A DNA stretch of 64,000 nt from Anaerolineae bacterium (GTDB lineage: Bacteria > Chloroflexota > Anaerolineae > Aggregatilineales > Phototrophicaceae), in contig JALHNT010000009.1 of the NCBI GenBank assembly GCA_022843385.1, forward strand, positions 1 through 64,000, read 5' to 3'. The position numbers and the translations under genes were made by a program. Each line of letters begins with the position of its first letter. The stretch's first letter is position 1. Below, piece by piece: positions 4,188 through 7,307 of the stretch. Under the pieces are notes generated by a model. That model saw only the letters and a list, made by a program, of their open reading frames with translations. It had not been told where the DNA came from and ran no database searches.

Positions 4188-4901
4188 CTACAAACTGACC
4201 TGACGATAAGCCGCCGCATCCTGCCAGCGCGGGCGTTGCAGTGGGACGTAATCCGGGTTGTCCCAGCGAATCTCGACGCCATAACCACAGCAGTCCTCAT
4301 CCTCCGGCAGATAATTGGGGATGACGTGACCGGGCTTAAAACCCATCTTCAACTGCTTGGAGAGATTGGTATCGAAGCGTGTGCCGGCGATGACCGCGGC
4401 CACATAATCAGCCGAGCTCATGTGGTCAGCCACCTGGTGATAATCAATGATGGCGCTGCCACAGATCATGCCGCGCAGGTTGAGCTTCTTCAGTAAGGTG
4501 CGCCGCGCTTCCATCAACCGTCGTCCGATGCCCGCCCCGCGATAATCCGGGTGCACCGCCGACTCGACCCCATACATCCACATCCCGTTACGGACGTGGG
4601 TCGTCAGTCAGCCGTAGCCGACCAGTTCCCACCAGCTTGTCGGCAGGGTCGGCTGCGGGGTGTAGCGCATACTGACGGTCAGACCAACAACGGTGTCGCT
4701 GCGGGTGTCGATGGCAACAAACTGGCCTTCGGGAAAAACATGCAGGTGGTGACGATAGTGGCTGGCGTTGAAGGTCATCTCTTCTTCGTCACGCGGGTCG
4801 AGGTCGTAGATCAACGCCGTCAGCGCTTCCATCGCCTCGGCATGATGCTCCTGGGTCGCGACAATCTGAATAAAATGGGCAGGCTCGTCTTTCGTACTCA
4901 T
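4188..4901 (-). CDS. GNAT N-acetyltransferase paralogue 2, interrupted by one in-frame UGA
   Basis: A GNAT-fold acetyltransferase of 237 codons, whole except for a UGA at codon 98 (4608-4610). Before it lies the N-terminal half, with HVFPEGQFVAI and VVGLTVSMRY. After it the same frame continues LTTHVRNGMWMYGVES and then HPDYRGAGIGRRLMEARR, the acetyl-CoA binding motif A. As I recall related proteins, Trp stands between the Gly and the LTTH where the UGA is. Other Trp codons in the gene are UGG. The closest relative in the window is the next gene upstream, with an aligned UGA. The substrate is unknown. The genetic neighbourhood suggests an amine, possibly a polyamine (inference). It could also be a pseudogene, but the rest of the frame is intact. 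Confidence 0.8.
4578..4599 (-). other. Hairpin just after the in-frame UGA of GNAT paralogue 2
   Basis: On the coding strand, eight bases after the UGA, CCACGUCC pairs with GGAUGUGG (eight pairs, one of them G-U) around the six-base loop GUAACG. The loop begins 17 bases after the UGA. That distance and a G at the start of the loop agree with what is known of bacterial SECIS elements, but nothing shows that SelB binds it. It may equally be a chance fold in coding sequence. Confidence 0.35.
4608..4610 (-). other. In-frame UGA codon, candidate recoding site (GNAT paralogue 2)
   Basis: UGA followed by CUG, at codon 98. The flanking coding sequence is open on both sides in the same frame and belongs to one GNAT protein. 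It aligns with the UGA at 5499-5501 in the paralogue: both are preceded by Gly and followed by Leu-Thr-Thr-His. Confidence 0.75.
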
Positions 4902-5011
4902 CTTTCATTCCTTTGATTAAGTGTTTGCATTCCCAATATTCTGTTCCGCCACAGCGCACTTCACTCGTGTTTCACCACATCAAGGTGAGGCATGGCGGAT
5001 CGGTTTTTCCC

Positions 5012-5039
5012 GTAGGGGCGGTTCGCGAACCGCCCCTAC
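5012..5039. repeat. Perfect 28-base palindrome, REP-like element between the GNAT paralogues
   Basis: GTAGGGGCGGTTCG is followed immediately by its exact reverse complement. It lies in the 210-base gap between the end of GNAT paralogue 1 and the start of paralogue 2. Palindromes beginning 'GTAGGGGCG' are, from memory, dispersed intergenic repeats in Chloroflexota and other genomes. It could fold into a very stable hairpin in the operon transcript and separate expression of the upstream and downstream genes. Confidence 0.75.
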
Positions 5040-5111
5040 AGCCGATATTTTTATGACCGCCCTCAAGTGCTCGCACAAAGAGGAGTGGACGGTACGGTTC
5101 TTTTACGGCAG

Positions 5112-5831
5112 TCACGCCACACGGCGCGGCTGCACCCGACGGTAATCCGGGTTGAGCCAGACGATCTCAACGCCGTAGCCACACGAATTCTCGTCGATGC
5201 TGTAATTCGGAATCAGGCCGTGTACCTTAAAGCCCTTCCGAAGTTGTTTGCTCAGGTTGGAGTCGAAGCGTGTACCCGCCACCACGTCGCGTACATATTG
5301 CTCGACCGGCACCGTCGCAGCCACCTTGTGATAATCCACAATCAGGCTGCCAGCGACCAGGCCGCGCAGGTTCAGGCGGCGAATCAGATCATAGCGTGCT
5401 TCGATCAATTTCCCGCCAACGCCCAGGCTGCGATATTCCGGCACGACCACGGTGTCGACGCCGTACAGCCACTCGCCGTTGGGGTTATGCGTGGTCAGTC
5501 AACCGTCGTTGGTCAGTTCCGCCCAGCTCTTGGGCGAATGCAGGTTGAGGTCCAGGTTCAGCAGCATGTTGGTGGAGGTGCCAACGACGATGTCGGTGGT
5601 CGCATCCAGTACCATGAACTGTCCTTCGGGGAAAATTGCGAGGTGCTGGCGGAACTTCTCCGCCGTCAGATCTTCAGATGACGCGGTCGCGGCGCTATAG
5701 CCGTATGACCGCTGGTGGCAGCGCTCCATCTGCTCCGCGTAGCGCAGGCGGCTGGGACGCACAATGAGCTGTGTGTCCCCGCTCTGTCTTGCGCGGGTCT
5801 GAAGGGGGCTGGTGTACAGGTTGGCGTTCAT
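5112..5831 (-). CDS. GNAT N-acetyltransferase paralogue 1, interrupted by one in-frame UGA
   Basis: A GNAT-fold acetyltransferase of 239 codons with UGA at codon 111 (5499-5501). The N-terminal half has IFPEGQFMVLD and ends SWAELTNDG before the UGA. The frame continues LTTHNPNGEWLYGVD and then VPEYRSLGVGGKLIEAR, the acetyl-CoA binding motif. The C-terminal NLRGLVAGSLIVDYHK and SKQLRKGFK are shared with paralogue 2, with overall identity of about 55% by eye. The start at 5831 follows a good ribosome site (AGAGGA). It lies 56 bases after the amine oxidase gene on the same strand. Its own terminal stop is also UGA-CUG, with a UAA two codons beyond. The substrate is unknown; N-acetylation of an amine handled by the neighbouring oxidase is a plausible inference. 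Confidence 0.8.
5499..5501 (-). other. In-frame UGA codon, candidate recoding site (GNAT paralogue 1)
   Basis: UGA followed by CUG at codon 111, at the same aligned position as in paralogue 2. I found no comparable strong hairpin directly after this one, only a four-base CCAC/GTGG pairing across a long loop. Confidence 0.75.
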
Positions 5832-5887: not shown

Positions 5888-7147
5888 TCAAGCGTCTCGG
5901 CGCTTGTTCAGAATCGCTTGGGCGGCGCGTTGGCCGCTGACATAGGCCCCGTGAACGGTGGCCGTGTAAACACTGCGCATGGTCGCTTCGCCAGCCCAGA
6001 ACAGCTTGTCGCCGGTGGGCTGCGCCAGGGCATCGCGCGCGTTCAGATGCCCGGGTGTGGTGACGCTGTACGCCCCACGAATGTAAGGATCGGCCACCCA
6101 GTTCATCAGGTGACGATCCAGCGCTTTCAGATCAGGCCGGTTGACTTCCAGCCGCAGCATCGCCAGCGCCCGATCCAGCGCACCCTCTTCGCCGCGTTCC
6201 AGCAGGTGACGAGCATGGTCGCCGGTGGCGAAAGCCGTCCAGACGATGTCACTTGTCTCATGTCCATAGGAAGGCGACCACCACATCGACGGGGTCTTGT
6301 CGCTGTAAATCGCCATGATGTCGGGCGAAACCGGGTGGTCGTTCAGCTTGAACACCAGCTTGATGCCCGGCCCCATGCGCAGCGCCTCAATCGCGCTCTG
6401 CTTCGCGGCCGGCAGCGCTGGCGAGAAGGCGATCATGCCGGCTTGCAGGACGCCCAACGGCACGGTGATGACCACCTGATCGGCGCTCATCGTCCCGGCG
6501 TGGGTTTCGAGGCGCACCACCGCCCCCGACCAGTCGATATGGGTGACGGGGGTGTTCAGGCGAATATCGAGTCCCTGGCTGAGAGCGTCGAGCATCCGCC
6601 CGTAGCCCTCCAGGATATGAAACTCGCCATCGCCACAGCTCGCGTCTTGCCATTCCTCGATGCAGGCTGCCGCACTCAGATAGCGGATGGAGTCGCCGGC
6701 GGCGTTCACATACGAGCGCTGGGCATAACGCATCTGTTCATCGCTGAAGCCGTTGCGCCGCAGGAAATGTTCCAGGTCTTCATCACCCGGCAGCGTCTCC
6801 AGCGAGGGCAGCTTCCAGGTACGGGTCTGGGCAAAGGGCGCATGTCGCAGCGCCTCGCCGTACAGACGCAGCGAACCATCGGAGAGCCGTACCAGCGAGT
6901 CGTTATTCCGTTGCCAGGTCAGGGTGCGGAGTCCGAGTTGTCGGACCAGCAGTCACGTCGGAGCTTCATCTCCATGGATGAATTCCGCGCCGAACTCAAC
7001 GGGGATGCTGGCGAAGTCGTGGTTGGTATAAACACGCCCGCCGATGCGATCACGCGCTTCCAGCACGGTGACAGTTTCACCAGCCTGTTGCAAATCCTGG
7101 GCTGCTTTCAGTCCAGCGAAGCCTGCGCCGATCACGAGGGTAGCCAT
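5888..7147 (-). CDS. Flavin-containing amine oxidase, interrupted by one in-frame UGA
   Basis: A FAD-dependent amine oxidase of 419 residues that would oxidise a primary or secondary amine such as a polyamine or its acetyl form. The N-terminus has the dinucleotide-binding motif [12 protein letters not shown], then [11 protein letters not shown] and [10 protein letters not shown], which are typical of the family. A UGA follows GDEAPT at codon 65 (6953-6955). The frame then continues [10 protein letters not shown] without a further stop to the C-terminal FAD motif ([10 protein letters not shown]). From memory, relatives read APTW before the LVRxLGL helix, so the UGA sits where Trp is expected. 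It ends with three consecutive UGA codons. It is the first gene of the operon with the two GNAT genes. A pseudogene is possible but only one codon is affected. Confidence 0.83.
6931..6946 (-). other. Hairpin just after the in-frame UGA of the amine oxidase
   Basis: GUCCGA pairs perfectly with UCGGAC around a CAAC loop, starting six bases after the UGA on the coding strand. It is closer to the UGA than a typical bacterial SECIS and lacks a G at the start of the loop. If functional it would more likely pause the ribosome than recruit SelB. A chance fold is possible. Confidence 0.35.
6953..6955 (-). other. In-frame UGA codon, candidate recoding site (amine oxidase)
   Basis: UGA followed by CUG at codon 65, between GDEAPT and LLVRQLGL. 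The 64 codons before it and the 354 after it form one amine oxidase. Confidence 0.75.
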
Positions 7148-7307
7148 AAAACACCTGAACAATCACATCAATCCTACGCTTCACTATAACATGGGTTTTG
7201 TGGGCTGTCTAGTCGGTCAGAAGGCGGAAAATTGTCAAAACCGGGAGTAGAGTGCTTGCTCTGGCTGACAACGCAGCACACGTCATCTCCAGTAGTGGCT
7301 GAATCGA

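Follow-up and report, generated by a model that had tools for sequence, protein, structure and literature searches.

In-frame UGA codons followed by CUG point to local programmed readthrough in an amine oxidase–acetyltransferase operon of Anaerolineae

How can a gene for an enzyme keep a stop codon within its reading frame in a genome where the same codon ends other genes as usual? The question was raised by two GNAT acetyltransferase paralogues of an Anaerolineae bacterium (Chloroflexota; Phototrophicaceae), located in a stretch of 64,000 nucleotides (assembly GCA_022843385.1, contig JALHNT010000009.1, positions 1 to 64,000; hereafter the window). A preliminary description of the window had reported that both frames were whole except for one UGA, placed as Gly-UGA-Leu-Thr-Thr-His in both, and this was confirmed on the minus strand. 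It had missed a third in-frame UGA, in a flavin amine oxidase gene (AO; UGA at 6953-6955), as well as the UGA-CUG context. Local recoding or readthrough, one of the options that it offered, was supported by the conservation of the UGA, its association with CUG, purifying selection and the normal use of UGA as a stop elsewhere. The reading that we prefer, with a probability of about 0.7 on the comparative sequence data, is that the AO-GNAT-GNAT operon undergoes local programmed UGA readthrough, with UGA-CUG as the signal and tryptophan probably inserted by tRNA-Trp(CCA).

The three genes are arranged on the minus strand in the order AO (5888..7147), GNAT gene p2 (5112..5831) and GNAT gene p1 (4188..4901), and each frame is open save for its single UGA. 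In AO, the UGA (6953..6955, minus strand; Ala-Pro-Thr-UGA-Leu-Leu) is followed by CUG at 6950-6952 and has coding sequence on both sides; it was detected when in-frame stops were sought by coding potential, and the alignment of the product to the Pfam family Amino_oxidase (PF01593; E 1.4e-69, residues 10-413) spans it at residue 65. In p2, the UGA (5499..5501, minus strand; Gly-UGA-Leu) is followed by CUG at 5496-5498, and the gene ends normally with TGA at 5112-5114; its product has a GNAT fold according to an AlphaFold model searched with Foldseek. In p1, the UGA (4608..4610, minus strand; Gly-UGA-Leu) is followed by CUG at 4605-4607, and the product matched PF13508 (E 1.8e-7) and PF00583 (E 1.5e-6). 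The computed protein identity of p1 and p2 was 45-48%, lower than the 55% or so previously estimated by eye. AO paralogues elsewhere in the genome of the window had no in-frame stop. AO and GNAT genes stand close together in many relatives too, usually with a UGA in one or two of the genes, while the window has it in all three.

Recurrence of the GNAT UGA among relatives is far beyond chance. A search with the p2 protein found 37 GNAT genes with TGA at the site, from at least 34 of the 98 genomes of the family and from six genera. After alignment of the fetched loci, the codon at this site in 113 distinct homologous genes was TGG in 53, TGA in 37 and another codon in 23; these counts are not family-wide proportions, since the fetched set consisted of TGA-flagged best matches and only some of the more distant ones. 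The 113 genes are what remained of 181 places of at least 330 nt once duplicates had been removed, shorter pieces having been taken out earlier. The earlier statement that relatives have Trp here proved mostly right: in genes without the UGA, Trp was the most frequent residue at the site (53 of 76), and Cys occurred in 0 of the 113. Consensus error, which had been offered as an alternative, fits poorly with recurrence across many assemblies (11 records, several accession series). Three further in-frame UGAs were found at other positions of GNAT-family genes (genomes G026, G080 and G079; G, C and L numbers are our handles for genomes, contigs and loci), all of them as UGA-CUG. In G026 and G080 the UGA replaces the Trp of Trp-Leu-Tyr-Gly, and in G079, where the usual site is TGG, it lies in an N-terminal stretch (loci L060 at 504, L163 and L149). 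Class-wide, the GNAT query found matches in 65 of 396 genomes; beyond the family of the window, the matches flagged with TGA looked like ordinary gene ends, as judged by match length and not row by row. For AO, with duplicates by local context removed, 45 distinct sequences covered the site, with TGA in 25, TGG in 18 and another codon in 2.

The codon after the UGA was nearly invariant. At the GNAT site, CTG followed TGA in 37/37 genes and TGG in 22/53, ATG (6) and TTG (7) being among the other codons after TGG; Fisher's test, which here as below ignores shared ancestry, gave 4e-10. The association held when only Leu codons were compared (37/37 against 22/38; 4e-6), and CTG made up 52% of the other Leu codons in the same GNAT genes. 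At the AO site, CTG followed TGA in 24 of 25 sequences, the remaining one (G020) having CTT, and TGG in 0 of 18 (3e-11). The residue after the TGG was Glu, Arg or Asp in 12 of these 18, which indicates that the Leu came with the UGA; among 22 tabulated UGA-AOs the codon beyond this Leu varied widely.

Beyond the UGA, the GNAT genes are under purifying selection. Mean pN/pS among the UGA genes, calculated for pairs with pS under 0.6 only (131 unsaturated pairs of 666), was 0.39 past the UGA and 0.60 before it, and no second stop occurred within the matched stretch in any of the 37 genes. The preliminary judgement that the GNAT genes do not resemble pseudogenes was thus upheld, decay fitting these values poorly. 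A second suggestion, that the UGA predates the split of the two paralogues, was only partly right. In a tree of 82 of the 113 genes, restricted to UGA genes and genes more than 40% identical to one of them, p1 of the window fell inside a clade that otherwise carries TGG (support 100/96), and its UGA is therefore probably a later gain. Gene conversion, also proposed at that stage, looks unlikely by eye, as p1 and p2 differ within a few bases on either side of the UGA.

Elsewhere UGA is used as a normal stop, as had been stated: in 1.29 Mb of the genome of the window, TGA ended 344 of 691 long open reading frames (ORFs) and was the commonest stop. A search of 11 genomes found RF2 in every one, ten times over the cut-off and once below it, as a contig-end fragment. 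The genome of the window (G000; a 96% complete assembly) contained 46 tRNAs, in which tRNA-Trp has the anticodon CCA and tRNA-Sec is the sole tRNA with UCA; a tRNA-Trp with UCA was not found. Across the family, a tRNA-Trp pattern matched in 62 of 98 genomes, the other 36 giving no match, and all tRNA-like matches had CCA by eye. With UGA the commonest stop, RF2 kept and no UCA tRNA-Trp found, a genome-wide reassignment of UGA to Trp was rejected. A pattern search for suppressor tRNA-UCA in four genomes gave 80 matches, and the 30 of these loci that were scanned contained no tRNA. Compared with reversed controls, these matches numbered 25 vs 24 in G004, 20 vs 22 in G015, 28 vs 7 in G000 and 7 vs 3 in G016.

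The scan for further in-frame stops covered 1.29 of 7.85 Mb (16%) of the genome of the window, for the UGA-CUG context only, and was noisy. Whatever the stop codon, 265 stops passed its middle threshold, 126 of them TGA; only three were TGA-CTG, identified by their printed scores as the AO, p2 and p1 sites. The loosest threshold added four TGA-CTG candidates, and the strictest left only one, p2 by its scores. This suggests that, within the scanned part of the genome, UGA-CUG recoding is confined to one operon.

Features expected of programmed readthrough are thus present: a conserved in-frame stop with coding sequence on both sides, purifying selection in the GNAT genes and a distinct nucleotide context. 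We propose that AO, p2 and p1 form one operon read as one transcript, in which ribosomes would have to pass each UGA to produce the full protein. The UGA-CUG context would be the cis signal, and the decoder would most likely be the ordinary tRNA-Trp(CCA) acting as a near-cognate tRNA, with Trp-Leu as the presumed product. Termination would release a fragment of 64 (AO), 110 (p2) or 97 (p1) residues without the catalytic core and readthrough would yield the enzyme, so that the stops could act as translational valves, possibly at a regulated level; a valve repeated over successive cistrons would fit control of the operon as a whole. The AlphaFold model of p2 has a mean pLDDT of 77, with values under 50 in the loop immediately preceding the site (97-110); the UGA residue, 111, comes before a strand (121-129) and a helix (138-152) that we take, from the GNAT fold, to bind acetyl-CoA. 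Since the UGA lies upstream of these putative elements, the model predicts that the p2 fragment should be inactive. As to the signal, bacteria terminate slowly at UGAC. The frameshift sites of bacterial RF2 genes are described as CUU UGA C (PMC5289835). Misreading of UGA by tRNA-Trp is reported for E. coli, where one reporter gave 12%, compared with under 0.1% in two Pseudomonas (PMC9481147), which indicates that such misreading differs widely between species.

Several observations weigh against programmed readthrough at UGA-CUG. In E. coli, +4A and not +4C is reported to favour misreading of UGA by tRNA-Trp (PMC5289835). CTG follows TGA in 4 of the 344 TGA-ended long ORFs, so it is not avoided at ordinary stops and the hexamer alone may not suffice; RNA structure that would complement it was not found near the UGAs of GNATs or AOs. 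Given shared ancestry, the Leu of the AO genes may represent one inherited change. On the GNAT tree the UGA label requires at least five changes, only two of which are forced by well supported branches. Four of the 25 UGA AOs are damaged, three being deleted down (G003, G004 and G075) and one frame-broken (G063). UGA AOs occur in genomes that also have a UGA GNAT, with the exception of G036, where the GNAT codon specifies Ser. In G017 the reverse holds, a UGA GNAT being accompanied by a UGG AO, and the pairing is thus not strict. Finally, an AO match at E 1e-8 was not found in six GNAT-UGA genomes (G005, G006, G013, G065, G073 and G075), although G075 does hold an AO remnant, which indicates that the GNAT UGA can persist without AO.

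The AO remnants of G003, G004 and G075 form frames of 102, 98 and 141 codons (L116 2670-2978, L122 2683-2979 and L170 3628-4053), open on both sides of UGA-CUG, and retain the ATG, the UGA-CUG and its flanking bases. Those of G003 and G004 also retain the promoter and ribosome site. These remnants may act as leaders or may simply be dying. In the window, a promoter-like site with an extended -10 (TAGACA-N17-TATAGT; 7183..7211, minus strand) precedes AO. An alignment of seven species, two of them with no more than an AO remnant, showed similar sites; the call rests on this conservation, because one match in the region is no more than in shuffled sequences (mean 1.0). A short inverted repeat, gtaggggcggttcgcgaaccgcccctac, was noticed by eye at about 5012-5039, between p2 and p1. 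Candidate stimulatory hairpins were also considered: a stem 9 nt beyond the UGA of AO was rejected, since synonymous recodings and TGG-type AOs fold at least as well, the folding comparison for the GNATs gave nothing clear, and the sites had no Rfam match over the cut-off, including SECIS.

Other decoders have to be weighed against the ordinary tRNA-Trp. Insertion of selenocysteine, which the preliminary description had listed, would be feasible in the genome of the window, where both tRNA-Sec (C67:6443-6535) and SelB (C4:15860-17698) were present, as it had asked to be checked, and 21 of the 34 genomes with a GNAT UGA have SelB. The other 13, however, several of them 93-97% complete, gave no SelB match (TIGR00475) above the cut-off. 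In six SelB-less carriers examined, the best match to the tRNA-Sec model, searched with Infernal's stricter filters, was tRNA-Ser(UGA), just over the Rfam cut-off in three and under it in three. The absence of Cys from the site speaks against selenocysteine as well, and constraint past the UGA was equally strong in SelB-less genomes (pN/pS 0.30; 16 pairs). Many AOs can form some hairpin after the UGA, but folding showed no excess over synonymous recoding, in UGA and TGG genes alike; neither this nor the lack of an Rfam SECIS match is a strict test. Selenocysteine thus appears largely refuted on these comparisons, and is very unlikely. A dedicated decoder, whether a suppressor tRNA that escaped detection, a modified tRNA-Trp, A-to-I editing of the mRNA that makes the UGA a Trp codon or a protein particular to this operon, would account for the confinement to a single operon, which suggests more than a leaky hexamer. 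The site nevertheless lacks the TadA editing motif, UACG, seven gene neighbourhoods inspected by eye showed no extra gene in common, and the 46 tRNAs of the genome of the window include no UCA tRNA save tRNA-Sec. In favour of such a decoder, tRNA-Trp(CCA) has a mismatch, C31-U39, where the anticodon stem meets its loop, in all 17 genomes of the genus (in the window's genome at L173 637-710, contig C31) and in G021; three g19 genomes have U-U, and most others found have U31-A39. In E. coli, an anticodon stem of 4 bp, open at the opposite end from C31-U39, is reported to increase UGA readthrough (PMC13092985). The mismatch was rejected as the sole cause because two UGA-GNAT carriers of other genera, G017 and G076, lack it; like G079, they have U31-A39. 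We consider a dedicated decoder unlikely.

Two further explanations were weighed. In stop-start reinitiation, the UGA would end an N-terminal half and the adjoining CUG would start the next, so that the enzyme is split into two polypeptides. NCBI table 11 includes CUG among its start codons, and the presence of CUG after 37/37 GNAT and 24/25 AO UGAs, a constraint on the next codon, would be explained in this way. But AUG, GUG and UUG, which are stronger starts than CUG, follow none of the 62 UGAs, even though ATG and TTG do occur after TGG at the GNAT site; the AO of G020 has CUU, and a Shine-Dalgarno motif before the UGA was not obvious by eye. Together these points make reinitiation quite unlikely. 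Alternatively, a mildly leaky UGA might be tolerated as a neutral or decaying state in genes of little importance, consistent with the deleted or broken AOs of four genomes, the failure to find AO in others and the report that in-frame stops are widespread in prokaryotic genes (PMC7918605). Under such tolerance it would be difficult to understand why 1.29 Mb contains 336 in-frame TGG-CTG pairs (692 long ORFs) yet only the three TGA-CTG of the operon pass the middle threshold, or why the UGA persists over six genera though TGA to TGG is a single step. The GNAT sequence past the UGA is, moreover, more constrained than that before it. We therefore regard a neutral state as improbable.

If the operon is read through under control, its substrate could provide the signal. 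The combination of an amine oxidase (PF01593) and an acetyltransferase (GNAT fold) is as in polyamine catabolism. Spermine and polyamine oxidases are among the PDB relatives of AO, the nearest being LSD2; for the GNAT, no PDB relative was found by sequence at E 1, and the best folds for the p2 model were GNAT-like decarboxylases. In G071 (L168, L327) an Orn/DAP/Arg-decarboxylase-family gene lies directly upstream of the UGA AO and a class III aminotransferase gene downstream, and in G070 a look-alike decarboxylase was seen by eye upstream of AO. Such amine genes were not seen by eye in six other neighbourhoods, of which only some genes were family-searched. The link of the operon to amines or polyamines is only suggestive. 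UGA_CUAG is described as a readthrough-prone signal in mammals, and in mammalian cells depleted of polyamines, spermidine is reported to have raised readthrough of OPRL1 (UGA_CUA) by a factor of more than 20 (PMC9841425). By extension, amines or polyamines might raise near-cognate decoding at UGA-CUG, so that AO and the acetyltransferases would be made only when substrate is plentiful, some AOs being leader-like remnants; we offer this as a tentative and rather doubtful idea. Some 1.9 kb past p1, the opposite strand carries a gene of the tryptophanase/tyrosine phenol-lyase family (NCBIfam NF009709; 690-2318, plus strand), which makes tryptophan another possible signal; such a gene was not seen by eye in the seven neighbourhoods mentioned above.

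If correct, programmed readthrough in this operon would provide a bacterial system for studying how UGA context and tRNA-Trp together set readthrough, and leaky stops may then serve as operon control elements. Gene callers would then split such enzymes or call them pseudogenes. An amine-sensing valve, if it exists, would parallel, in bacteria, the polyamine-sensing recoding of antizyme and OPRL1. No report of this operon, of conserved bacterial UGA-CUG readthrough, or of programmed readthrough of internal stops with a hexanucleotide signal in neighbouring cistrons of a chromosomal bacterial operon was found among the literature matches listed, which covered few subscription journals. An alternative-code screen mentions Chloroflexi once, as contamination, in the part available (PMC8629427).

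The proposed readthrough shares traits with several known systems. As in the prokaryotic genes with in-frame stops described in PMC7918605, frames and selection are kept on both sides of the stop; a possible short-term regulation is considered there, and no mention of an operon or a fixed 3' hexamer was found in the portion of that paper available. Reassignment of UGA to Trp, as in Mycoplasmatales and others, likewise places UGA opposite a conserved Trp, but here UGA is the commonest stop, RF2 is kept and only this operon was seen to be affected. The frameshift site of the RF2 gene prfB (CUU UGA C) also uses a UGA-C stop as a translational control point, through a +1 frameshift, whereas the frame is unchanged across the UGA here. 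In the mammalian UGA_CUA(G) genes (OPRL1 and others), UGA is similarly followed by CU-purine and decoded by a near-cognate tRNA; termination there involves eRF1 and finished proteins are extended, in contrast to RF2 and a UGA that lies inside an enzyme and in neighbouring cistrons. Among bacteria, the coat protein gene of Q-beta is a case of a leaky UGA. In E. coli nudL and pheL, UGA is thought to be read by a near-cognate tRNA in competition with RF2, as proposed here, although readthrough there extends a short or finished product and was ascribed to a weak RF2 variant (PMC5373646). Unlike such leaky bacterial UGAs, those of the AO-GNAT-GNAT operon lie inside enzymes, are conserved across genera and are tied to CUG.

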